Origin: Streptococcus suis
Lineage (GTDB): Bacteria > Bacillota > Bacilli > Lactobacillales > Streptococcaceae
Length of the DNA: 64,000 bases
Direction of reading: 5' to 3'
Assembly (NCBI RefSeq): GCF_002960445.1
Contig: NZ_POJD01000142.1
Span: forward strand, 1 to 64,000
Of this stretch, positions 1,360 through 62,584 are shown in pieces (within the stretch, counting starts at the first letter, position 1; each line of letters begins with the position of its first letter). The position numbers and the translations under genes were made by a program. The notes below the pieces were generated by a model. That model saw only the letters and a list, made by a program, of their open reading frames with translations, was not told the origin of the DNA and did no database searches.

Positions 1360-1388
1360 TTGACGAAGACTTGAATATAGTATATACT
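1360..1388 (+). promoter_or_regulatory. Promoter of the cobalamin operon
   Basis: TTGACG at 1360-1365 and TATACT at 1383-1388 are separated by 17 bases, a near-ideal housekeeping promoter. A perfect 16-bp palindrome (TATAGTATATACTATA, 1376-1391) covers the -10 box and could be an operator or simply AT-rich chance. Transcription would begin near 1395, just before the ANTAR leader. Confidence 0.75.
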
Positions 1389-1394
1389 ATACTT

Positions 1395-1480
1395 GTTAAT
1401 ATATAAAAGGCAAAGGGGCCTGTTGTTCGCAATGAAGCGGAAGTTTTGGAACAACGGGCTAACTTTGCCTTTTTATTTCT
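1395..1480 (+). promoter_or_regulatory. ANTAR-type antiterminator/terminator leader of the cobalamin operon
   Basis: Two adjacent hairpins with six-base loops are visible. AGGC[AAAGGG]GCCT spans 1408-1421. TTCGC[AATGAA]GCGGA spans 1426-1441, with one G-U pair. A 4-base linker separates them. Both loops have A at position 1 and G at position 4, the known ANTAR-protein target. The alternative fold is a long terminator: AGGCAAAG (1408-1415) with CTTTGCCT (1463-1470), plus an inner 11-bp stem (1418-1428 with 1449-1459), then TTTTATTT. The two folds exclude each other, so binding of EutV should allow read-through into eutP and the genes behind it. Confidence 0.85.
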
Positions 1481-1538: not shown

Positions 1539-1988
1539 ATGGGACTTGAATCAAAAAAAATTATGTTTGTAGGCCCAGTAGGTGTTGGGAAAACGACACT
1601 AACACAACGTTTGAAGGGGCTTGATATCACCTATTTTAAAACACAAGCTATCCAATTTTATGATTCTATCATTGATACACCTGGTGAATTTTTACAACAT
1701 AGACGATACTACAATGCTTTATCTGTAACAGCTGCAGAGGCAGAAGTGATAGGCTTACTAGCTTCGGCAACCGCTACTATGCAAACATTTCCTCAGGGGT
1801 TTTCATCTTTATTTAATAAACCAGTGATTGGCATTATCACCAAGGTTGATTTAGTAACAGACCCTAGCGGCCTTGAGAAAGCTAGAGCACAATTACGTGC
1901 AGCAGGTGCCAAGGAAATCTTTGAGGTATCTTTAGAGGATAATACAGGTATTGAAGCGATTCAAAACTATTTGACAAAGGAAAGTTGA
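1539..1988 (+). CDS. eutP: EutP/PduV-family GTPase-like protein
   Basis: This 149-residue P-loop protein belongs to the EutP/PduV family associated with bacterial microcompartments. The Walker A motif GPVGVGKTT is at residues 12-20, a DTPGE Walker-B/G3-like motif near 47-51, and a TKVD G4-like motif near 106-109. Family members are linked to microcompartment positioning, and Salmonella EutP has been reported to have acetate kinase activity. It is the first gene after the ANTAR leader, as in Enterococcus, but here it heads the cobalamin operon rather than eut genes. The ATG follows GAGAGGATG. Confidence 0.88.
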   Translation: MGLESKKIMFVGPVGVGKTTLTQRLKGLDITYFKTQAIQFYDSIIDTPGEFLQHRRYYNALSVTAAEAEVIGLLASATATMQTFPQGFSSLFNKPVIGIITKVDLVTDPSGLEKARAQLRAAGAKEIFEVSLEDNTGIEAIQNYLTKES

Positions 1989-5017: not shown

Positions 5018-5032
5018 AAAGTGAGAATACAA

Positions 5033-5641
5033 ATGCAGTTATATACAAAAACAGGTGACAAAGGCTTGACCAAACTGGTTGGTGGTCAGAGTGTCGCAAA
5101 AGATGCGGAGCGTGTTAATGCCTATGGAACCATTGATGAGTTAAATTCTTGGATTGGTTATATAGTTACTAAAATGGACCCCGCAGATGCCTTAAAGGAT
5201 GAATTGTTGCAACTCCAGCATTACCTTTTTGACTGTGGTTCGGATTTATCTACGCCTCACGGTGTTTATCCTTATAAGGTTGACAAAACCATGGTTGATT
5301 GGATTGAGGAAAGGATTGATACTTACGCAGATGTTCCACCAGCGCTCGAAGTTTTTATCTTACCAGGAGGACATGAAATTGCCGCTATGATCCACATAGC
5401 ACGCACTATTGCTAGACGTGCGGAGCGCCATATTGTAGGCACCATGTGGACAACGGAAATTAATAAGGATGTCTTGGTATTTGTAAACCGTCTTTCAGAC
5501 TATTTCTTTGCCTTGGCGCGTGTGATCAATTTTACCCACCAGCAGCCAGATATTGCTTATGAAAGAGGTGCAAAAGTCTTTCATAATATAACAAAAGCTG
5601 ATGTGGAGCGTTGGGCTAAGGCTAGGGAAGAAGGAAGATAA
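5033..5641 (+). CDS. pduO: PduO-type ATP:cob(I)alamin adenosyltransferase, copy 1
   Basis: About 202 residues of the PduO-type (trimeric) adenosyltransferase fold. The enzyme transfers the adenosyl group of ATP to cob(I)alamin to make the active coenzyme. Landmarks are YTKTGDKGLTKLVGG at the N-terminus, YGTIDELNSWIG, the ATP-contacting RTIARRAER and NRLSDYFFALAR. I prefer ATG 5033 over an upstream in-frame GTG at 5021 because family members begin with this segment. It ends the first segment of the operon; a new promoter and ANTAR leader follow. Confidence 0.9.
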   Translation: MQLYTKTGDKGLTKLVGGQSVAKDAERVNAYGTIDELNSWIGYIVTKMDPADALKDELLQLQHYLFDCGSDLSTPHGVYPYKVDKTMVDWIEERIDTYADVPPALEVFILPGGHEIAAMIHIARTIARRAERHIVGTMWTTEINKDVLVFVNRLSDYFFALARVINFTHQQPDIAYERGAKVFHNITKADVERWAKAREEGR

Positions 5642-5672: not shown

Positions 5673-5701
5673 TTGACAGAATGCTCTATAAAGTGTAGAA
5701 T
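5673..5701 (+). promoter_or_regulatory. Internal promoter before cbiA
   Basis: TTGACA at 5673-5678 and TAGAAT at 5696-5701 lie 17 bases apart. An 8-bp inverted repeat (AGAGCATT 5641-5648, AATGCTCT 5680-5687) brackets the -35 box; it lacks a T-run, so it is more likely an operator or processing stem than a terminator. Confidence 0.7.
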
Positions 5702-5720
5702 GATTTTATAAGAAAATCAT

Positions 5721-5797
5721 TTGACACAACGGCGTGTTAAATCAATTAAAGTGAGCAACGGGGCTACAAAAAATAGTGATATTTTTTGTGGCCTTTT
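5721..5797 (+). promoter_or_regulatory. Second ANTAR-type leader, before cbiA
   Basis: Hairpin 1 is TTGACAC[AACGGC]GTGTTAA (5721-5740) with one G-U pair. Hairpin 2 is AGC[AACGGG]GCT (5754-5765), extendable past a bulge. Both six-base loops have A1 and G4. The right arm of hairpin 2 is also the start of a 13-bp terminator stem (5763-5775 with 5780-5792, one G-U pair) followed by CTTTTT. This is the interlocked antiterminator/terminator layout expected for EutV control. Confidence 0.85.
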
Positions 5798-5821
5798 TAT
5801 GTTTTAAAAAGGTGGCAATAC

Positions 5822-7177
5822 ATGAAACAATTTATGTTAGCAGGTGTTTCTAGTGGGGTTGGAAAAACAACAGTCACTCTAGGTATTTTAAAAGCCTTGA
5901 CTGAGAAAGGCTTACGTGTGCAACCTTACAAGGTCGGTCCAGACTATATTGATACCGCTTATCATAGTCGAATAACGAAGAGAGTTTCTCGGAACTTAGA
6001 CAGCTTTATGATTCCTGATAAGGCTGCCTTGGACTGGTCTTTTAGAAAGTGGCATCAAGATGCTGACATTGCCCTTGTTGAAGGTGTAATGGGTCTATTT
6101 GATGGTCTTGGTACGGATAAAGACTGTGCATCATCGGCTGCGATTGCTAAGAAATTAGATATCCCTGTTGTCTTGATTATCGATGGGAAAGCAACTTCAA
6201 CATCGGCAGCGGCTATGGTTCATGGTTTCTCAACTTTTGATCAGGATTTGACAATTGCTGGAGTGATTGTCAATCGAGTTGCTTCACAAACTCATTATGA
6301 ATTGATAAAAGGCGCTATTGAACGCTATACAGATGTGGAAGTATTGGGCTACTTTCCAAAAAATGTTCAGGTAGAATTGCCCTCGCGCCATTTGGGGCTA
6401 GTTCCAGATGTTGAAATGGAAAACTTGGAGAAACATTTTTCTATCTTAGGTCAATTGGCTCAAGACCATATTGACTTAGATCGCTTGCTTGAGAAGGTAG
6501 ATATAGCAGGTGAAGAACCGTCAAATCCATTCAGCATTCCGAAACAATTCCCTCTAAAAATTGGCTATGCTCTTGATGATGCCTTTCATTTTTACTATGA
6601 GGATAATTTGGATTTGTTAAGGGAATATGGGGTCGAATTGATTCCCTTTAGTCCTCTCAATGATCAGGAATTGCCCTTAGTCGATGCCTACTATTTCGGC
6701 GGAGGTTTTCCGGAAGTCTATGCAAAAGAATTGATGGAAAATGTTTCCTTCCGCCAATCTGTTCTGAAGGCCCACCAAGAAAATAAACCTATTTATGCAG
6801 AATGTGGTGGCCTGATGTATCTTGGCAAGGAACTACAGACTGGAGAGGGGTCTTATGACATGGTAGGGATATTTGATGGTGTCAGTGTTATGACAGACCG
6901 GCTAAAAAGCTTTGGTTATTGTCAAGCTAAGACTCAGGTTAGGAGCTTGTTTGGTCCAAAGGGTACGGTTGTTAGGGGTCATGAGTTTCACCATTCTGTA
7001 TTTCAGACTAATGAACCGACCGTTTTGCAACTAGAAAAAGTTCGAGATGGCCAAGTTGTTTCTAGCTGGACAGGTGGCTATCAAACTGGTAATACCTTTG
7101 CTAGCTATCTGCATGTTCATTTTTATCAAAATCAGGCTTTGTTGGAAAATTGGCTTCAAAGTATTTGTGAGGGATAG
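5822..7177 (+). CDS. cbiA: Cobyrinate a,c-diamide synthase
   Basis: This 451-residue amidotransferase adds glutamine-derived amides to the a and c side chains of (cobalt-)cobyrinate, using ATP. The N-terminal dethiobiotin-synthetase-like domain has the P-loop AGVSSGVGKTT near residues 6-16. The C-terminal class I glutaminase-like domain has the nucleophile Cys in YAECGGLMYLG and a late His in LHVHF. I chose ATG 5822 behind AAAGGTGG; an in-frame TTG at 5786 lies inside the leader terminator and cannot be the start. Confidence 0.94.
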   Translation: MKQFMLAGVSSGVGKTTVTLGILKALTEKGLRVQPYKVGPDYIDTAYHSRITKRVSRNLDSFMIPDKAALDWSFRKWHQDADIALVEGVMGLFDGLGTDKDCASSAAIAKKLDIPVVLIIDGKATSTSAAAMVHGFSTFDQDLTIAGVIVNRVASQTHYELIKGAIERYTDVEVLGYFPKNVQVELPSRHLGLVPDVEMENLEKHFSILGQLAQDHIDLDRLLEKVDIAGEEPSNPFSIPKQFPLKIGYALDDAFHFYYEDNLDLLREYGVELIPFSPLNDQELPLVDAYYFGGGFPEVYAKELMENVSFRQSVLKAHQENKPIYAECGGLMYLGKELQTGEGSYDMVGIFDGVSVMTDRLKSFGYCQAKTQVRSLFGPKGTVVRGHEFHHSVFQTNEPTVLQLEKVRDGQVVSSWTGGYQTGNTFASYLHVHFYQNQALLENWLQSICEG

Positions 7178-8137: not shown

Positions 8138-8821
8138 ATGACCTATATTCAAAATCCATCCTCTATTGAGGAAACAAGTTTTAAGATTATCCAATCCATA
8201 ATTGATGAGGAGCATCCAGATTATCAATTTCAAACGGAGATGGAGGAGTCTATCATCAAGCGAGCAATTCACACTTCAGGCGATTTTGATTATCTCTATA
8301 CTTTAAAATTTACTCATGATGTCAATCAAAAGATTGTAGAAGTATTGAAAAACAAGGGGACCTTGGTGCTGGATTCCAGTATTTCACTTAATGGGATAAA
8401 CAAACGCGTTTTAGATCAAATGGGGGTGAATTATACCTGCTTGATCAACGATGAAGATGTTGCTCTACTGGCTAAAGAAAAAGGTATCACACGGGCCATG
8501 GCTGCTGTTGAAGTGGCAGCCAAAATTCCAGGTCAAAAAGTTTTTGCCTTTGGCGGTGCTCCAACAGCCCTATCCTACTTATTAGAATTGGTTGAGGCAG
8601 GGAAGATGGAAGTTGATGCAGTTATTGGTGTCCCAGTTGGCTTTATCAATGTTGAGGAATCTAAGTCAGATTTGCTTGCGTCACCTCTTCCTGCCATTGC
8701 GACCCTTGGTCGAAAGGGTGGTAGTACCATTGTGGTGGCTATAATAAATGCCATCATCTACCAGTTAAAAGAAGTCTTGACTGGTGATTATGTTCGTTAT
8801 TCAACACCAATAAATAAGTAG
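8138..8821 (+). CDS. cbiC: Cobalt-precorrin-8 methylmutase, copy 1 (catalytic His present)
   Basis: This 227-residue CbiC/CobH enzyme moves the C11 methyl group to C12 to give cobyrinate. The conserved RAIHTSGDFDY segment carries His45, the position of the catalytic His in this family. GITRAMAAVE and the C-terminal LGRKGGSTI segments are also present. A second, diverged copy follows 9 bases downstream. This copy is the probable working enzyme, although the usual ADF after the His is GDF here. Confidence 0.93.
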   Translation: MTYIQNPSSIEETSFKIIQSIIDEEHPDYQFQTEMEESIIKRAIHTSGDFDYLYTLKFTHDVNQKIVEVLKNKGTLVLDSSISLNGINKRVLDQMGVNYTCLINDEDVALLAKEKGITRAMAAVEVAAKIPGQKVFAFGGAPTALSYLLELVEAGKMEVDAVIGVPVGFINVEESKSDLLASPLPAIATLGRKGGSTIVVAIINAIIYQLKEVLTGDYVRYSTPINK

Positions 8822-8830
8822 GAGAACTTT

Positions 8831-9526
8831 ATGGCCTATATAACAGATGCACATCAGATTGAAGCAGCAAGTTACCAAAAAATTCAGGAAATCATCACTA
8901 AAGAACATTCGGATTTTGTATTTAAAAACCCCTATCAGGAGGCTGTTTTAAAGCGAGTTGTTTTTACCAGTGCTGATTTTGATTACCTGTATAATATACA
9001 GTTTTCCAATCATGCCATTGAGGAAATAGTGAAGGTCTTGAAAAATAAGGGAACTATCTTCACTGATACGACTATGGTTTTGGGAGGGTTCAATAAGAAA
9101 TTATTGGATAGGCTTGGTGTCGCTTATCGTTGCTTGGTGAATGAACCAGAGATTTTTAAAGAAGCCAAGGAAAAGGGAATTACGCGGTCAATGGCTGCAG
9201 TAGAGCACGCGGCAAAAGTTGAAGGGCCGAAACTCTTTGTTTTTGGGAATGCTCCAACTTCTATATTTAAGGTCTTGGAAATGGTCGAGGCAGGTCAAAT
9301 GGAGTCTGTTCCAGTCATCGGTGTTCCAGTTGGATTTGTTGGAGCTGCAGAGTCTAAATTGCAACTCCATGAAAGTTCCTTGCCGGCTATAGCTGCACTT
9401 GGTAGAAAGGGTGGCAGTACCATTGCAGCAGCAATCGTAAATGCTATTCTTTATCAGCTAAAATCTGAGGATAGAGAAGGGCAACTCTTCTCACTTTCAG
9501 GAAATAGTTTTTGTCAAGGTAAGTAA
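8831..9526 (+). CDS. CbiC paralogue lacking the catalytic histidine
   Basis: At 231 residues this protein is clearly homologous along its whole length to the preceding cbiC, with the same GITRSMAAVEHA and LGRKGGSTI segments. However, the active-site segment reads KRVVFTSADFDY: Phe45 (codon ttt at 8963-8965) stands where the catalytic His should be. Reading frame, length and ribosome site are intact, so this is not a decayed gene. It may bind or channel the product or partner with CbiC; a methylmutase role would need another residue to take over. The tandem arrangement points to duplication, then divergence. Confidence 0.88.
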   Translation: MAYITDAHQIEAASYQKIQEIITKEHSDFVFKNPYQEAVLKRVVFTSADFDYLYNIQFSNHAIEEIVKVLKNKGTIFTDTTMVLGGFNKKLLDRLGVAYRCLVNEPEIFKEAKEKGITRSMAAVEHAAKVEGPKLFVFGNAPTSIFKVLEMVEAGQMESVPVIGVPVGFVGAAESKLQLHESSLPAIAALGRKGGSTIAAAIVNAILYQLKSEDREGQLFSLSGNSFCQGK

Positions 9527-19775: not shown

Positions 19776-20624
19776 ATGCTAAGTGTGGAGAATATCAGTT
19801 ACACCTATAATCTAGACTTTGGAAAGGTCCTCGAAGATGTAACTATGGACTTTGATAAGGGGCAAATCGTCGGTGTTTTAGGTGCCAATGGTTCTGGTAA
19901 ATCAACTTTGATGAAAGTTATCATGGGCCTCTATCAGCCGCAGAATGGAAAGGTATTTTACCAAGGGAACTCTCTTATCTATAACAAGAAGGCCTTATAT
20001 GCCTATCGCCAAGAGGTTGGAATTGTTTTTCAAGACCCTGAACAACAGTTGTTTTACTCAGTGGTGGAAGATGATGTGGCCCTGGCCCTTCGTAATCTCT
20101 CCTATCCAGAGCCAGAAATAAAGGAGCGTGTGGATAAGGCGTTAAAAGATATGCATATCGAACATTTGCGAAATCGCCCTGTTCACTATTTGAGTTTTGG
20201 TCAGAAGAAAAAGGTGGCGATTGCAGGTGTTTTAGCCTTACAACCTAAGTATTTACTTCTGGATGAACCGACTGCAGGTTTAGATCCGCGTGGTCGGAAT
20301 CATATGATGTTTCTGATGAAAAAATTGGCCAAGCAAGGAACAAAAATTATCTTGACCAGTCATGATATGGATTTGATGTATGATTGCTGCGACTACGTTT
20401 ACCTACTTGATAAGGGGAAATTAGTCTTGGAAGGCGAAGTAGGCAGTGTCTTTTTAGAAGAGGAAATCTTAGAGAAGGCACGCTTATCTTTACCTTGGCT
20501 AGTAAAATTACATCTAGCAATGGGGCTCCCATTGGCAGAAAATGAACAGGAATTTTTTGAAAGGTTAGGAAAAGACTATGGCAAAATCATTGATGATTCA
20601 AGGAACAGCTTCGGATGCCGGTAA
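19776..20624 (+). CDS. cbiO: Cobalt ECF transporter ATPase
   Basis: This 282-residue ABC ATPase energises the cobalt transporter. Walker A is GANGSGKST near residues 38-46, the Q-loop VFQDPEQQLF follows, the signature is LSFGQKKKVAIA, Walker B is YLLLDEPTAGLDPRG, and the switch His is in TSHDMD. Its 3' end overlaps cbiP by 47 bases, an unusually long overlap in this operon. Confidence 0.95.
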   Translation: MLSVENISYTYNLDFGKVLEDVTMDFDKGQIVGVLGANGSGKSTLMKVIMGLYQPQNGKVFYQGNSLIYNKKALYAYRQEVGIVFQDPEQQLFYSVVEDDVALALRNLSYPEPEIKERVDKALKDMHIEHLRNRPVHYLSFGQKKKVAIAGVLALQPKYLLLDEPTAGLDPRGRNHMMFLMKKLAKQGTKIILTSHDMDLMYDCCDYVYLLDKGKLVLEGEVGSVFLEEEILEKARLSLPWLVKLHLAMGLPLAENEQEFFERLGKDYGKIIDDSRNSFGCR

Positions 20625-22065
20625 GAGTATTATCGTAGCAGGTTTGTGTCGTATTTTTAAGCAGGATGGCCTGCGGGTTGTGCCCTTCAAATCACAGAAT
20701 ATGGCCCTTAATTCTTATATCACCAAAACAGGTCAAGAAATGGGACGGGCCCAGGTCTTTCAAGCGGAGGCTGCTCAGGTTGAACCAGATGTTCGGATGA
20801 ACCCTGTTCTTCTCAAACCGACCTCAGACCGAAAATCTCAGGTTGTTTTCATGGGCCAGGTCCTAACGGATATGGATGCTGTCGAGTACCACGAATTTAA
20901 GCAGGAGCTACTTCCCAAGATCAAAGAAGTTTATGAGGAACTGAGTGCTGAAAATGATATAATATTGCTTGAGGGAGCAGGTAGCCCAGCTGAGATCAAT
21001 TTGAACGACCGAGATATTGTTAATATGGGTATGGCTAGATTGGTTGATGCACCGGTTATCTTGGTAGCGGATATTGATAAGGGTGGTGTCTTTGCTTCGA
21101 TTTATGGGACAATCATGCTCATGCCAGAGGAAGATCGCCAACGAATCAAGGGAGTAATTATCAATAAGTTCCGAGGTGACGTTGCCCTGCTTCAATCAGG
21201 AATAGACATGATTGAGGACTTGACTAAGGTTCCTGTTTTGGGTGTGGTCCCTTATGCCCAGCTCAACATTGATAGTGAAGATAGTGTTGCCCTAGTTCAA
21301 AAAAGCCGGAAATATAATCCTCAAAAAGACTTGGATATTGCCATTATCAATCTGAATAGGATGTCTAATTTTACAGATTTTAATAGTCTAGAAATGCAGC
21401 CTGACGTGTCTGTTCGCTATGTCAGACCAGGTGATGAGCTTGGTCACCCAGATCTCGTGATTTTACCAGGAAGTAAGAACACTATTGAGGATATGGTCTA
21501 TTTGGTCGAGTCGGGCTTGGATAAAGAAATTCATCGTTGTTTCCAAGAAGGAAGTGCTATTTTTGGTATTTGTGGTGGCTACCAGTTACTTGGTCAACAC
21601 TTGTCGGATCCCTTAGGGGTTGAGTCCAGCATTCAGGACATACCTGCGCTGGGGCTTTTAGACACAACCACTATCTTCCAAGCCAATAAGTGTACCACTC
21701 AGGTCCAAGCTCGGCAAGGTGACTACTGCTTAGAAGGTTATGAAATCCATATGGGGGAAACCTGTTTGGGTGATGGTGTTCAAGCATTTTCAACCATTGT
21801 TTTGCAAAATGGCGAGGCGACGGAGCGTCAGGATGGAGCTATTGGACATGGTGGTCAGGTTCAAGGGACCTATCTACATGGTATTTTCGACAATCTGGCA
21901 TGGACCCGTGATTACCTAAATCAATTAAGAATTAGAAAAGGCTTGCCAACTCTTGACCAGCAAGTAGAAGCCATTCAGACCATAAAGGATAGAGAGTACG
22001 ATAAGTTAGCAACTATTTTGAGAGAATCCTTGGACATGGCAGCTATCTATGACATCTTAGCTTGA
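20578..22065 (+). CDS. cbiP: Cobyric acid synthase
   Basis: This 495-residue glutamine amidotransferase amidates the b, d, e and g side chains of adenosylcobyrinate diamide. The N-terminal P-loop is IQGTASDAGKS at residues 7-17. The glutaminase-like domain has the nucleophile Cys in FGICGGYQLLG, and YLHGIFDN near the C-terminus carries the matching His. The ATG lies 47 bases inside cbiO; no later in-frame ATG would preserve the P-loop, so the overlap is real. Confidence 0.95.
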   Translation: MAKSLMIQGTASDAGKSIIVAGLCRIFKQDGLRVVPFKSQNMALNSYITKTGQEMGRAQVFQAEAAQVEPDVRMNPVLLKPTSDRKSQVVFMGQVLTDMDAVEYHEFKQELLPKIKEVYEELSAENDIILLEGAGSPAEINLNDRDIVNMGMARLVDAPVILVADIDKGGVFASIYGTIMLMPEEDRQRIKGVIINKFRGDVALLQSGIDMIEDLTKVPVLGVVPYAQLNIDSEDSVALVQKSRKYNPQKDLDIAIINLNRMSNFTDFNSLEMQPDVSVRYVRPGDELGHPDLVILPGSKNTIEDMVYLVESGLDKEIHRCFQEGSAIFGICGGYQLLGQHLSDPLGVESSIQDIPALGLLDTTTIFQANKCTTQVQARQGDYCLEGYEIHMGETCLGDGVQAFSTIVLQNGEATERQDGAIGHGGQVQGTYLHGIFDNLAWTRDYLNQLRIRKGLPTLDQQVEAIQTIKDREYDKLATILRESLDMAAIYDILA

Positions 22066-22085
22066 CCGTTAGGAAGGGAAAATGT

Positions 22086-22670
22086 ATGCGAATTTATACA
22101 GGATATGGAGATAGTGGGAAAACCCGCCTTTATGGTGGTGACCGAGTTTCCAAGACCCATGAGCGCGTGGAAGCTTACGGGACTATGGATGAGCTGTGTT
22201 CACTGCTAGGAAGAATAGTTGCGGAGATGAGGGAATACCCAGAATTGGACGATCTTCGACTGGAGTGCGAGCAAATCCAGCAGCAGCTCTTTGATTGTGG
22301 CAGTGACCTAGCTACACCAAGGGAATTGCGGCCCTACAAGCAGGAAGAAGCTACTGTAAATTGGCTGGAAGAACGTATGGATGCCTATATGCACCAGCCA
22401 CCGCAGTTGGAAAAGTTCATCATACCAGGTGGGCATTTGATTGCCAGTTCTCTCCACATGGCAAGAACACTTACTCGGCGATTGGAACGTCGAATGGTAG
22501 CCTTAATGGAGATAGAAGAAAAGGTAAATCCAGTCGGTATGGTCTATATCAACCGTTTATCAGACTACTTTTTTGTCCTAGCTCGCCTGGTTAATTTTAG
22601 ACTAGGGGTAGCTGATACGGTCTATGAACGCAGCTCTAAGATTTTTCGAAGTCGGAAAAAGGAGGCATGA
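22086..22670 (+). CDS. PduO-type ATP:cob(I)alamin adenosyltransferase, copy 2
   Basis: This protein of about 194 residues is homologous to the gene at 5033. It keeps the ATP-binding YTGYGDSGKTRLYGG, YGTMDELCSLLG, RTLTRRLERRMV and NRLSDYFFVLAR segments, so it should be active. The start is ATG 22086 behind AGGAAGGGA. Its place after cbiP suggests the adenosylation step of biosynthesis (CobA/BtuR role), while copy 1 could serve salvage. This split is inference; the sequences do not show which does what. Confidence 0.88.
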   Translation: MRIYTGYGDSGKTRLYGGDRVSKTHERVEAYGTMDELCSLLGRIVAEMREYPELDDLRLECEQIQQQLFDCGSDLATPRELRPYKQEEATVNWLEERMDAYMHQPPQLEKFIIPGGHLIASSLHMARTLTRRLERRMVALMEIEEKVNPVGMVYINRLSDYFFVLARLVNFRLGVADTVYERSSKIFRSRKKEA

Positions 22671-31284: not shown

Positions 31285-31866
31285 GTGAAAAAAACATTTG
31301 AAACACGCAAGCTATATTTCGGATTCCCAGTATTCTTTCTGGGATATAAAGATGATGTTCATGGATACAATATAACAACCTCAAGTTCTGCTTATTCTTT
31401 GGGCAGTATGATGGTTATTGGCATGAGGACAAAGGGAAATGCAGTAACTGAAATCAGTAAACATGGTCACTTTACTGTCAATATTCCTAGAGAAGAGTTG
31501 ATTGAGGAAGTGGAACTTGCTGGTTTTAATAGCCGAAAAGATAAATTTTCCTTGACTGGTTTGACTTACACAGTTGGTGAAACAGTCGATGCTCCTTTAG
31601 TAAATGAGTGCCCAATTTCTATTGAGTGCGAAGTTGTTGAACTTGTGGAATGTGGTAAGTTGACCAACATTATTGGAAAAGTGACGCGCAGAGTAGTAGA
31701 AGAAGACTTGCTTGATGAGCATGGTGATTTTAAGGGCCATGAATTTTCGCCGATCAGCTATATCGGTGATGGTTCAGGTCGTCACTATCGCTACTATAGT
31801 GAAGATTCCTTAAGGATGGGGACTCTGATCAAAAAACGAAGAGAATCAGAAGCAAAGTCGGATTAG
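31285..31866 (+). CDS. Flavin reductase-like FMN-binding protein
   Basis: This 193-residue protein has the split-barrel flavin reductase (FMN-binding) fold of the kind that includes HpaC-like reductases. Support comes from the YNITTSSSAYSLGSMMVIGM segment, HFTVNIPREE and the later CEVVELVE..LTNIIGKV strand pair. Translation starts at GTG 31285 behind AAAGGAG. It is the last plus-strand gene before the small RNA locus. Dihydroflavins can reduce corrinoid cobalt in vitro, so it could supply electrons for adenosylation, but the sequence does not prove this. Confidence 0.72.
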   Translation: MKKTFETRKLYFGFPVFFLGYKDDVHGYNITTSSSAYSLGSMMVIGMRTKGNAVTEISKHGHFTVNIPREELIEEVELAGFNSRKDKFSLTGLTYTVGETVDAPLVNECPISIECEVVELVECGKLTNIIGKVTRRVVEEDLLDEHGDFKGHEFSPISYIGDGSGRHYRYYSEDSLRMGTLIKKRRESEAKSD

Positions 31867-31869
31867 AAC

Positions 31870-31915
31870 AAGAAAAAACCACCTTTGAAAAATCAAGGGT
31901 GGTTTGTAGTTTATG
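31870..31915. terminator. Bidirectional intrinsic terminator
   Basis: A 13-bp stem with one G-U pair (31876-31888 with 31893-31905) closes a 4-base loop. On the minus strand it is followed by TTTTTT, making it a strong end for the small RNA. On the plus strand the tail is GTAGTTTATG, weaker, but it may still end the cobalamin operon. Confidence 0.85.
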
Positions 31916-32241
31916 TTAAGAAAGCATTTATACATCTTTGTATAGTCTGTTAAGCATCATTGATTAACTGTGGCTTTCCCGATTATCGGCCCTGCTCCGT
32001 TGCAGTAAGGTAGTTTTTCTACCTTTAGAAAATGAAAGGTACTTCACGTAGAGCCAATAATGGAAAATACCGCAGTAGATGCGCTATCCAAACTGACATC
32101 ACACCTTACATCGAGGCGTGAGATCTACTAAAATTTGAAACCAAAGACCTGACTTAAAGCAAAGCTTATCACAGTGGCGGGACCGCGTTGGATTTGCACC
32201 AAACTTCCATGTTTTCAAAAGTACTAAAATCAATTCCTAGC
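31876..32241 (-). ncRNA. eutX: Cobalamin riboswitch-controlled ANTAR-binding small RNA (EutX/Rli55 type)
   Basis: This minus-strand transcript starts near 32241 and ends at the terminator at 31876. Its first part is an adenosylcobalamin riboswitch (32120-32232). Further on are two hairpins with A1/G4 six-base loops: CTGC[AACGGA]GCAG (31992-32005) and GTTAATC[AATGAT]GCTTAAC (31949-31968, one internal mismatch). The linker is longer than in the mRNA leaders and contains a CCGAT/ATCGG stem. In Enterococcus and Listeria such an RNA sequesters EutV unless the cofactor ends it early. Mutually exclusive stems exist between the parts (32007-32025 versus 32020-32041). I found no obvious early terminator. 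Confidence 0.82.
32120..32232 (-). promoter_or_regulatory. Adenosylcobalamin riboswitch
   Basis: On the minus strand the conserved core reads GGTGCAAATCC, then GCGGTCCCGCCACTGTGA, then a B12-box-like AAGTCAGGTCTTTGG. These are the invariant blocks of the cobalamin aptamer in the right order, and TTTGAAA with TTTCAAA can close P1. It is the only cobalamin aptamer I could find in the window. Confidence 0.9.
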
Positions 32242-32247
32242 ATCATA

Positions 32248-32276
32248 ATTATAACTTATCTTCGCTAGTTTGACAA
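32248..32276 (-). promoter_or_regulatory. Promoter of the riboswitch small RNA
   Basis: On the minus strand TTGTCA (32276-32271) and TATAAT (32253-32248) are 17 bases apart, a strong promoter aimed at the riboswitch. The region 32277-32508 between this promoter and the eutG promoter has no gene or clear structure that I can name. Confidence 0.75.
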
Positions 32277-32562: not shown

Positions 32563-32571
32563 TTTTTCGTG

Positions 32572-32667
32572 GTACAAAGGCGTACTAATCAATAAGCAAT
32601 GTAGCTATATGAAACGACTATGACTTAATGGAGAGTTCTAGTCTGGTTTTCATATGGCTTATTTTTA
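32572..32667 (+). promoter_or_regulatory. ANTAR-type leader before eutG
   Basis: Hairpin 1 is GTAC[AAAGGC]GTAC (32572-32585). Hairpin 2 is AGC[AATGTA]GCT (32595-32606). Both six-base loops have A1 and G4. The right side of hairpin 2 is the start of a long terminator stem that pairs AGCTATATGAAA with TTTCATATGGCT across a loop and ends in TATTTTTATGG. Folding of the ANTAR pair would break the terminator. Confidence 0.85.
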
Positions 32668-32695
32668 TGGAAAAGTTACATAGAAAGGAGAAGAA

Positions 32696-34281: not shown

Positions 34282-34857
34282 ATGAAAGGTAGAATACTAA
34301 TAGCAGACAAGGATCCAATGGTCAGACGTGAAGTTAGAGAACTATTGGAAAAGGCTGATTTCGAAGTTGTGGCAGAAGCTAGTGATGGCTTTGAAGCAAT
34401 AGAATTAAGTCAAAAATACCGTTCGGATTTAGTTGTGATGTCTATCCAGCTACCTCTATTAGATGGTTTGACAGCCTGTAAAAAAATATTGGATGATAAT
34501 CTGGCCTATAGTGTTCTCTTGTTAACTACCCAAAGTGATGAACAGTATATCGAGAAAGCCAAAAGATATGGTGTTAGTGGTTACTTAGTAAAACCTCTTG
34601 ATGCTAAATCGTTGATTCCTATGGTGGAAGTATGTATTGCAAGAGGTAGACAATTTCAGCACTTGACCAGTGAAATGGCTAAATTGACGAAGAAAATCAA
34701 TGACCGTATCATCATTGAAAAAGCAAAAGGCTTATTGATGTCCCGTGATCATCTATCAGAATCAGCAGCCTTTAAGCATATTCGAACCATCAGTATGCAA
34801 AAGCGAGTTCCCATGGTGGAAATTGCTAAATTGTTGGTTATGCATGATGAGTTTTAA
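34282..34857 (+). CDS. eutV: ANTAR-domain antiterminator EutV with degenerate receiver
   Basis: This 191-residue protein has a receiver-like domain (residues 1-120) and a C-terminal ANTAR RNA-binding domain (about 130-188: IIIEKAKGLLM, then SESAAFKHIRTISMQKRVPMVEIAKLLV). The phospho-acceptor Asp of EutV receivers is replaced by Ser54 (codon tct, 34441-34443; VVMSIQLP), and the acidic pair reads Asp9-Lys10. Thr82 and Lys104 remain. No histidine kinase gene (eutW) lies in the window; eutA follows directly. Its targets are presumably the four leaders described here. Confidence 0.92.
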   Translation: MKGRILIADKDPMVRREVRELLEKADFEVVAEASDGFEAIELSQKYRSDLVVMSIQLPLLDGLTACKKILDDNLAYSVLLLTTQSDEQYIEKAKRYGVSGYLVKPLDAKSLIPMVEVCIARGRQFQHLTSEMAKLTKKINDRIIIEKAKGLLMSRDHLSESAAFKHIRTISMQKRVPMVEIAKLLVMHDEF

Positions 34858-34885: not shown

Positions 34886-35020
34886 TCCTGTGATAGTAAG
34901 CAGTATTACAGGATGCTAATCGAATAGAAGAGGCTGACAATGATGTAAGCCTAAAAGCAATGACGCTTGAAGAGTGGTAATAGACGAGTTCTATTAGCAT
35001 TTCTTTAAGTGTCTTTTTTT
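34886..35020 (+). promoter_or_regulatory. ANTAR-type leader before eutA
   Basis: A strong preceding hairpin (TCCTGTGATA 34886-34895 with TATTACAGGA 34904-34913) is followed by the ANTAR pair. Hairpin 1 is GGCTGAC[AATGAT]GTAAGCC (34932-34951, one mismatch) and hairpin 2 AAGC[AATGAC]GCTT (34955-34968). The 3' part of hairpin 2 overlaps the terminator stem 34962-34973 with 35002-35013, which has an inner TAATAGA/TTCTATTA stem and a run of seven Ts. The eutA ribosome site GGAGG comes straight after. Confidence 0.87.
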
Positions 35021-41632: not shown

Positions 41633-41657
41633 AAAATAATTTTTGGAGGTCATAACA

Positions 41658-41951
41658 ATGGCAAGTGCAAACGCATTAGGAATGGTAGAAACACGCGGCT
41701 TGGTTGGCGCAATCGAAGCAGCAGATGCAATGGTCAAAGCAGCAAACGTTACCCTTGTAGGTAAAGAACAAGTTGGTGGTGGTTTGGTGACTGTCTTGGT
41801 TCGTGGAGATGTTGGTGCAGTTAAAGCAGCGACAGATGCAGGTGCAGCAGCAGCAGAAAATGTTGGTGAATTAGTATCTGTACACGTTATCCCACGTCCA
41901 CATTCAGAAGTAGAAGTAATTTTACCTCAAGCTAAAAAAGAAGAAGAATAA
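41658..41951 (+). CDS. eutM: Hexameric shell protein EutM/PduA, copy 1
   Basis: This 97-residue single BMC domain protein starts [44 protein letters not shown] is the standard core. It is the major flat facet hexamer. It has a short charged tail (QAKKEEE) that copy 2 lacks. ATG 41658 follows TTGGAGG; an in-frame TTG at 41643 overlaps that ribosome site. The DNA is almost identical to copy 2. Confidence 0.95.
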
Positions 41952-41970: not shown

Positions 41971-42246
41971 ATGGCAAACGCAAACGCATTAGGAATGGTA
42001 GAAACACGCGGCTTGGTTGGCGCAATCGAAGCAGCAGATGCAATGGTCAAAGCAGCAAACGTTACCCTTGTAGGTAAAGAACAAGTTGGTGGTGGTTTGG
42101 TGACTGTCTTGGTTCGCGGAGATGTTGGCGCAGTTAAAGCAGCGACAGATGCTGGTGCAGCAGCAGCAGAAAATGTAGGTGAATTAGTATCTGTACACGT
42201 CATTCCACGTCCTCATTCAGAAGTAGAAGTAATTTTACCGAAGTAG
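41971..42246 (+). CDS. eutM: Hexameric shell protein EutM/PduA, copy 2
   Basis: This 91-residue BMC protein has the same residues as copy 1 from position 4 on; only the third residue (Asn for Ser) and the tail differ. I count seven base differences over the shared coding region, all silent, so the copies arose recently or are kept alike by gene conversion. A strong GGAGG site precedes it. Confidence 0.95.
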
Positions 42247-62423: not shown

Positions 62424-62439
62424 GCTGAAAATATATCCT

Positions 62440-62535
62440 TTAACTGAGTCCAGAGAGGCGAAGAAGGGAACGTGATAAATAGGGCAGATACTGCCTTCTT
62501 TTCGTGTAACCTTGCTAGCCAGCAAGGTTTTTTTC
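62440..62535 (+). promoter_or_regulatory. PyrR-dependent attenuator of pyrK-pyrD
   Basis: The conserved PyrR-binding loop is visible (TCCAGAGAGGCGAAGAAGG, 62449-62467). An alternative stem pairs GAAGAAGG with CCTTCTTTTC downstream. The terminator is ACCTTGCT (62509-62516) with AGCAAGGT (62521-62528), then seven Ts. With uridine nucleotides PyrR should favour the terminator. Confidence 0.88.
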
Positions 62536-62584
62536 TCTATATCGACTTTCTTATTTTCTGTGTTTGCATAGAATAGGAGAAAAG

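Follow-up and report, generated by a model that had tools for sequence, protein, structure and literature searches.

Cobalamin operons are the textbook example of end-product repression by a riboswitch. Two small RNAs with an adenosylcobalamin (AdoCbl) aptamer, EutX of Enterococcus faecalis and Rli55 of Listeria, were reportedly first described in Science in 2014. In E. faecalis, EutV acts on leader RNAs that carry two hexaloop hairpins, and both AdoCbl and ethanolamine are needed; one such leader lies outside the ethanolamine utilization (eut) genes, at ef0120, and is described as responding to AdoCbl plus ethanolamine through EutV and EutW (PMC3369931). The linkers between the hairpins are 5–12 nt long in that species, and linkers of 3 and of 14 nt both impaired induction (PMC3369931). 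EutW phosphorylates Asp54 of EutV, which leads to dimerization and RNA binding, and EutV without phosphate is reported to be monomeric and to bind about ten-fold more weakly (PMC3369931, PMC8934654). EutX is described as a sponge, and the EutX of Streptococcus sanguinis lies in reverse orientation (PMC5821096). In Listeria, B12, the RNA aspocR and the regulator PocR form a circuit in which PocR possibly activates the cobalamin biosynthesis (cob) genes (PMC7677406). In periodontitis samples, a transcript from Streptococcus has been recorded that carries a cobalamin riboswitch next to an adenosyltransferase gene (PMC7160235).

Here we describe a 64,000-nucleotide stretch of Streptococcus suis DNA (the window; Table 1) in which antiterminator leaders of this kind precede the genes for de novo cobalamin synthesis. 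Our best explanation, which we hold to be probable with modest confidence, is that EutV-responsive antiterminators stand at the cob genes, that an EutX-type sponge governs EutV and that AdoCbl promotes its own synthesis. The parts are known already; judged from sequence, their wiring to cob appears to be new among the literature matches listed. Those matches include no ANTAR leader at cob genes, although one may be listed among the supplementary hits of PMC3369931, a paper in which Streptococcus is named as a source of hits. Term searches of the main text of papers on S. suis cobalt stress and on an S. sanguinis CcpA mutant turned up nothing about cob (PMC7563783, PMC6904348).

Table 1 Features of the window and the basis on which each was assigned
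Feature	Position	Strand	Basis
Promoter-like TTGACG-N17-TATACT before the eutP–cob leader	1360–1388	+	Sequence
Intrinsic terminator, 5′ arm covering P1 and the start of P2	1405–1474	+	Folding energy, sequence
Dual A1/G4 hexaloop antiterminator (P1 AAAGGG, P2 AAUGAA)	1408–1441	+	Hairpin scan, sequence
eutP (PduV-EutP GTPase)	1539–1988	+	Pfam PF10662
Cobalamin biosynthesis gene run	1998–31866	+	Family matches for tested genes; remainder named from translations
Internal promoter-like TTGACA-N17-TAGAAT before cbiA	5673–5701	+	Sequence
Second dual hexaloop antiterminator (AACGGC, AACGGG) before cbiA	5719–5767	+	Scan, alignment
cbiA-leader terminator, which cannot coexist with P2	5760–5798	+	Folding, alignment
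cbiA (cobyrinic acid a,c-diamide synthase)	5825–7177	+	NCBIfam
Terminator-like hairpin with T-run at the EutX end, facing the end of the cob genes	31873–31904	-	Sequence
EutX 3′ part: long-range stem S1 and hexaloop hairpins H1–H3	31930–32067	-	Alignment, sequence
AdoCbl riboswitch aptamer of the EutX-like small RNA	32091–32235	-	Rfam RF01482, 120.1 bits
EutX promoter-like TTGTCA-N17-TATAAT	32248–32276	-	Sequence
eutG leader: dual hexaloop (AAAGGC, AAUGUA) and terminator	32570–32670	+	Scan, folding, sequence
eutV, receiver and ANTAR, Ser at phosphoacceptor position 54; no eutW after it	34282–34857	+	Family matches, alignment
eutA leader: hexaloops AAUGAU (imperfect stem) and AAUGAC, and terminator	34936–35020	+	Folding, sequence

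Organization of the locus

The main genes from 1539 to 31866 all point in the same direction, eutP coming first and the cobalamin genes after it. The cob run contains cobD, a pduX-like gene, cobT, pduO, cbiA, cbiB, two cbiC genes, cbiD, more cbi genes with cbiK and cobQ/cbiP, hemA and other hem genes, cobU and cobS, and ends at its 3′ side with two flavin enzymes. The pduX-like gene had no NCBIfam match and was named by reading its translation. The gene for cobalt-precorrin-8 methylmutase, cbiC, is doubled in tandem (8138–8821 and 8831–9526), with both copies exceeding the NCBIfam cutoff, and the run holds two genes for PduO-type cobalamin adenosyltransferases (5021–5641 and 22062–22670).

The eut and pdu genes and an acetate kinase gene occupy 32696–54552, 3′ of the cob genes. 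They begin with an alcohol dehydrogenase gene read as eutG, followed by a microcompartment (BMC) shell gene, eutV, eutA, eutB and further eut and pdu genes. Two small proteins encoded in tandem (41643–41951 and 41971–42246), by eye of shell type, are nearly identical and probably reflect a recent duplication. An earlier note on this DNA had proposed one switch over about 50 kb; the span is a fair description of the two gene blocks, but at least four separate antiterminators are distributed along it.

Predicted antiterminator leaders at the cob and eut genes

Before eutP and the cob genes, the first hairpin, P1, reads AGGC-AAAGGG-GCCU (in DNA AGGC-AAAGGG-GCCT; 1408–1421) and the second, P2, reads UUCGC-AAUGAA-GCGGA (1426–1441). 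The terminator that interlocks with them has its arms at 1405–1428 and 1449–1474 and a folding energy of −36.7 kcal/mol (z = −6.7), which none of 200 shuffles equalled, and the description in the earlier note of a cob operon starting with a dual A1/G4 hexaloop and an interlocked terminator is therefore sound. In this leader and in a second one immediately in front of cbiA, which that note had not described (5719–5798), two hairpins of at least 3 bp each present six-base loops with A at position 1 and G at position 4, and the terminator overlaps and excludes a hexaloop hairpin. A scan of the window for paired A1/G4 hexaloop hairpins gave eight matches, and the three with a T-run within 45 nt fall at two sites (1408 and 5719). 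Over 20 dinucleotide shuffles of the window, matches with a T-run numbered two in total. An exact match to the 13-nt EutV consensus at 20516, inside an open reading frame read as cbiO, was attributed to chance, 50 shuffles having given 6 such matches.

The two leaders differ in their distribution. The one at 1408–1441 is also present in G124, G157, G120 and G064; this type was found in five S. suis group genomes and before none of the 19 other eutP genes scanned, and one further genome (G013) has a similar leader before its pduX-like gene. The cbiA leader stands at each of the 24 Streptococcus cbiA loci examined, comprising 22 in EutV-bearing genomes and two (G244 and G433) that came from an order-wide sample and stand outside the 22-sequence leader alignment. 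The gene cbiA itself occurs in 22 of 197 Streptococcus genomes, each of which belongs to the set of 24 with an EutV match below 1e-50.

Within the alignment of 22 cbiA leaders, G4 is conserved in 22/22 sequences in both hairpins and A1 in 19/22 in P1 and 22/22 in P2, counts that do not represent independent events because many of the aligned genomes are close relatives; in the three exceptions, the P1 loop starts with G rather than A. All pairs of P1 and P2 are formed in 100 percent of alignment cells. Covariation in the antiterminator is weak, with one P1 pair changed on both sides (matched by 176/500 shuffles) and P2 invariant. For the terminator, 97.0 percent of cells are paired, compensatory change occurs at two pairs (79/500 shuffles reach two) and seven cells are compensated, a number reached by 0/500 shuffles; sliding the pairing by 1–3 columns lowers it to 42–71 percent. 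The linker between the hairpins was scored as 4 nt at 1408–1441, and as 11 nt in the cbiA leader of the window and 11–15 nt in its relatives, values that depend in both leaders on how the stems are counted. The cbiA leader is probably a second check on transcription, of the same kind as the element before eutP.

The eutG and eutA leaders (Table 1) are of the same type as the cob leaders, and we therefore propose that a single EutV regulon takes in both B12 synthesis and the ethanolamine genes that depend on B12.

Position of the cobalamin aptamers

The earlier note had found no cobalamin aptamer before eutP or cbiA. The Rfam covariance search, which bears directly on that reading, agreed with it: at the gathering cutoff and also at E ≤ 10, the sole cobalamin aptamer of the window lies on the minus strand at 32235–32091, between cob and eutG, and the regions around 1400 and 5800 gave no cobalamin match. 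A whole-genome search with RF00174 and RF01482 (E ≤ 0.001) returned no other. The cob operon thus has no upstream aptamer of the kind that identifies repression by a cobalamin riboswitch. All 24 EutV-bearing Streptococcus genomes have exactly one AdoCbl aptamer; it lies within about 11 kb of eutV in these 24 and at least 15 kb from cbiA in the 22 that have this gene. A PyrR leader candidate at 62433–62538 was set aside, as it scores 50.2 bits against an Rfam cutoff of 54 and other genes follow it.

For comparison, 27 genomes of Lactobacillales other than Streptococcus had cbiA, from 23 of which loci were returned and 19 scanned. A cobalamin riboswitch stands just upstream of cbiA, on the same strand, at 13 of these 19 loci, and the remaining six have none within about 1.5 kb. 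In two loci (L232 and L235) the sequence upstream of cbiA resembles coding sequence by eye. Matches to a dual hexaloop with T-run in family f7 lie about 1.2 kb before cbiA and were taken as unrelated. The non-Streptococcus cbiA of L214 (G272) is 66 percent identical to that of the window; in front of it there is no cobalamin riboswitch, and no dual hexaloop with T-run was scored. Granulicatella sp. WM01 (L150) has both EutV and EutW, with no AdoCbl aptamer within the 20 kb examined, and any EutX it may have would sit outside that stretch. The anatomy of the eutP–cob leader supports its reading as a putative ANTAR-type dual-hexaloop antiterminator that takes the place of a cis-acting cobalamin aptamer.

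An EutX-like RNA between the cob and eut genes

On the minus strand, the AdoCbl aptamer is followed on the same strand by three hexaloop hairpins, H1 (32005–31992), H2 (31968–31949) and H3 (31943–31930), an anatomy known from sequence and belonging to a transcript that is predicted. By this anatomy, the minus-strand RNA is a predicted EutX. We aligned 24 sequences, from 22 of the 24 genomes (G111 and G176 were omitted as divergent) and two named loci. G4 is present in 24/24 loops of H1, H2 and H3, and A1 in 23, 24 and 20 of 24, respectively. Pairing in the helices reaches 97.4 percent, falling to 34–44 percent when they are slid, and six pairs are compensated (12/500 shuffles reach six). The scanner had also matched a dual hexaloop at 32032–31992; its first hairpin is not conserved, relatives forming another, covarying hairpin there, and H1 stands.

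The earlier note had built on the EutX model, in which AdoCbl shortens the small RNA. The EutX-like gene is present, but the release step of the literature, a terminator where the aptamer ends, is not visible: in all 24 aligned sequences the longest T-run in the 20 nt behind the last hairpin of the aptamer (P13) is 2–4, and no U-tract follows P13 in the 20 nt tested. AdoCbl-dependent shortening is therefore not evident, and the sequence gives no support for applying the step directly. The T-run hairpin of the window sits after H3; in S. sanguinis-like sequences H2 and H3 lie, by eye, inside a stem that has a T-run behind it.

Folding models, which ignore the ligand and the co-transcriptional order, point to another route. 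In the S. suis group the mean pairing of H2 is 0.00 when the post-aptamer strand is free and 0.57–0.69 when it is blocked. The effect varies across the genus: in G041, G053, G010 and S. ovuberis, H2 forms even when the strand is free; in most S. sanguinis-like sequences H2 hardly forms, whether the strand is free or blocked. AdoCbl may on this modelling act by refolding EutX rather than by shortening it. The same two observations, the closure of H2 by the post-aptamer strand in the S. suis group and the missing U-tract, would also suit the opposite sign of control, in which bound AdoCbl frees H2, EutX holds EutV better and the product represses cob through the sponge. We consider this quite unlikely, as AdoCbl is described as activating in both E. 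faecalis and Listeria (PMC5821096) and as the H2 effect is neither uniform across the genus nor drawn from models that include ligand or co-transcriptional order.

At 31866–31904, the cob run and EutX run towards each other and meet at one hairpin, with a long T-run on the EutX strand only. Transcription of cob might run on into the antisense of EutX.

EutV in the absence of EutW

EutV is the only ANTAR match in the genome; it matches structure 6WSH (E = 7.2e-59), and the window protein is identical to EutV of S. suis 10581. It agrees with E. faecalis EutV at Tyr101, Lys104, Arg142, Lys147, Arg168 and Met172, and has Thr for Ser82, Phe for Tyr164 and Ile for Lys143. Position 54 is Ser in the five S. 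suis group genomes and Ala in two named S. suis loci (7/7 without Asp), and Asp in the other 19 of the 24 Streptococcus genomes. EutW is likewise matched in 19 of 24 genomes and missing exactly in the five with Ser54 (G000, G124, G064, G120 and G157), among which G124 is a single contig. There was no EutW in the partial stretch examined of the two Ala54 loci, and a HisKA_2 profile had no match in G000. Both the EutW kinase and Asp54, which define the EutVW two-component system, are thus absent from the S. suis group, and the normal EutV assumed by the earlier note does not apply to the window: its EutV lacks Asp54, and its genome contains no EutW that we could find. With S54 and K10, together with D9, T82, Y101 and K104, the protein fits an aspartate-less receiver.

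Two genomes (G035 and G146) have an EutW match in two separate pieces and an EutV that keeps Asp54; the split suggests that the kinase gene may be broken there too. A distant relative, Desulfoluna (L158), has Asp54 and no match to the streptococcal EutW query.

The loss of EutW and Asp54 is what would be expected if EutV were a dead remnant in a decaying locus, its leaders serving only to terminate. EutV of the S. suis group is under purifying selection: the protein is identical in G000, G124, G064 and G120 despite synonymous changes, and in comparisons with others (pairs with amino acid changes) dN/dS is 0.04–0.11 for the whole gene and 0.03–0.11 in its two parts, with synonymous sites almost saturated in the comparison with strain 614. 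EutX and the leaders have likewise been retained, and decay is extremely improbable.

That the two losses go together would also fit constitutive activity of the kinase-less EutV in the S. suis group. EutX would then have little effect, the antiterminators would always be open, cob would be set by promoters and carbon catabolite repression and AdoCbl would exert no feedback. A cre-like sequence in the cbiA promoter region of several genomes, noted by eye against the consensus, is in line with such control, as is the S. sanguinis ethanolamine locus, which is said to be tied to CcpA (PMC7674665). The S. suis group nevertheless keeps the promoter, aptamer and hexaloops of EutX, and also the terminators, which would be pointless if always overridden; these make constitutive activity unlikely.

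A third alternative is that the pseudo-receiver now responds to a different input, either some small molecule or a protein partner, as in AmiR with AmiC, that outweighs AdoCbl for cob. Receivers without the aspartate are described as enriched with ANTAR domains, AmiR among them (PMC4395418), and Thr82, Tyr101 and Lys104 are present in a receiver part whose own dN/dS is 0.03–0.11. No candidate partner is known, and we regard a new input of this weight as very unlikely.

A proposed circuit

Our preferred reading, that cob belongs to an EutV regulon under an EutX sponge, would work as follows. EutV would bind the hexaloop hairpins, the overlapping terminator could not form and polymerase would enter the cob genes; before cbiA, a second EutV-responsive element would re-check transcription. 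The same protein would open both cob leaders and the eutG and eutA leaders. With AdoCbl scarce, the hexaloops of the EutX-like RNA would hold EutV, and with AdoCbl bound they would release it. By freeing EutV, AdoCbl would promote its own synthesis, the first AdoCbl having to come from leaky termination or uptake. The ef0120 precedent in E. faecalis makes the addition of cob to the EutV regulon a small mechanistic step. The direction of the effect, with AdoCbl switching cob on, is taken over from EutX of E. faecalis and Rli55 of Listeria, and by this analogy with Enterococcus and Listeria positive feedback would follow if the sign is the same as in E. faecalis.

With no acceptor for phosphate at position 54, EutV of the S. 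suis group would have to be active without phosphate. With EutW gone, the ethanolamine input through the kinase would be lost and AdoCbl, acting through EutX, would be the main known signal left. The joint loss of Asp54 and EutW makes the AdoCbl branch more important, yet the activity of EutV cannot be assumed. Several observations weigh against the preferred reading: the linker lengths set beside those of E. faecalis, the three P1 loops with G1, the weak covariation, the lack of a U-tract behind the aptamer, the closed H2 of the modelled S. suis EutX, the weaker binding of unphosphorylated EutV in E. faecalis and an eutP-type leader confined to the S. suis group among the eutP genes scanned. 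A stronger form, which we put forward tentatively and at somewhat less than even probability, is that an antiterminator with neither kinase nor phosphosite has here been handed to RNA, with the AdoCbl riboswitch RNA as its sole signal and B12 driving itself in a bistable manner, maybe strengthened by cob read-through antisense to EutX. The cofactor would drive its own synthesis in this way because one and the same protein serves both of the antiterminators that follow each other along the B12 operon, and the antisense contribution is suggested because the cob and EutX units converge.

On the preferred reading, the riboswitch sits away from the operon, and cob is preceded by antiterminators of the type on which EutV acts, a protein that the RNA with the riboswitch can capture in trans. 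If this is true, the sign of B12 control is reversed and B12 production could be all-or-none. The S. suis group would offer a natural experiment, with a response regulator kept by selection without its kinase and RNA as its likely remaining input.

Comparison with described systems

One of the closest systems is EutV/EutW of the E. faecalis eut genes, where leaders at eutP, eutG, eutS and eutA likewise have dual A1/G4 hexaloops overlapping a terminator, and where the structure of the homologous ANTAR protein is known (6WSH). The window resembles it in having leaders at eutP, eutG and eutA, and differs in having leaders before de novo cobalamin genes and, in the S. suis group, in lacking EutW and the phosphoacceptor Asp. 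With EutX of E. faecalis and Rli55 of Listeria, the RNA of the window shares an AdoCbl aptamer followed by hexaloops on one strand and a promoter-like sequence of its own. It is set apart from them by its reverse orientation, a third conserved hexaloop (H1) on a long-range stem and no U-tract behind the aptamer hairpin, and the EutV of the window would also govern cob.

In the Listeria circuit of Rli39, aspocR and PocR, B12 likewise releases an activator through a riboswitch-controlled RNA (PMC7677406), but aspocR is antisense to the mRNA of a DNA-binding regulator rather than a sponge for an antiterminator. AmiR shares with the EutV of the window an ANTAR output and a receiver without phosphoacceptor, and RitR shares a receiver without phosphoacceptor and Lys at the second acidic position (PMC4395418). 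Unlike AmiR, the EutV of the window has no known AmiC-like partner, and the control proposed for it is a sponge RNA. The place that the cobalamin riboswitch occupies before the cob operons of related Lactobacillales (13/19) is held at 24/24 Streptococcus cbiA loci by the putative ANTAR antiterminator.
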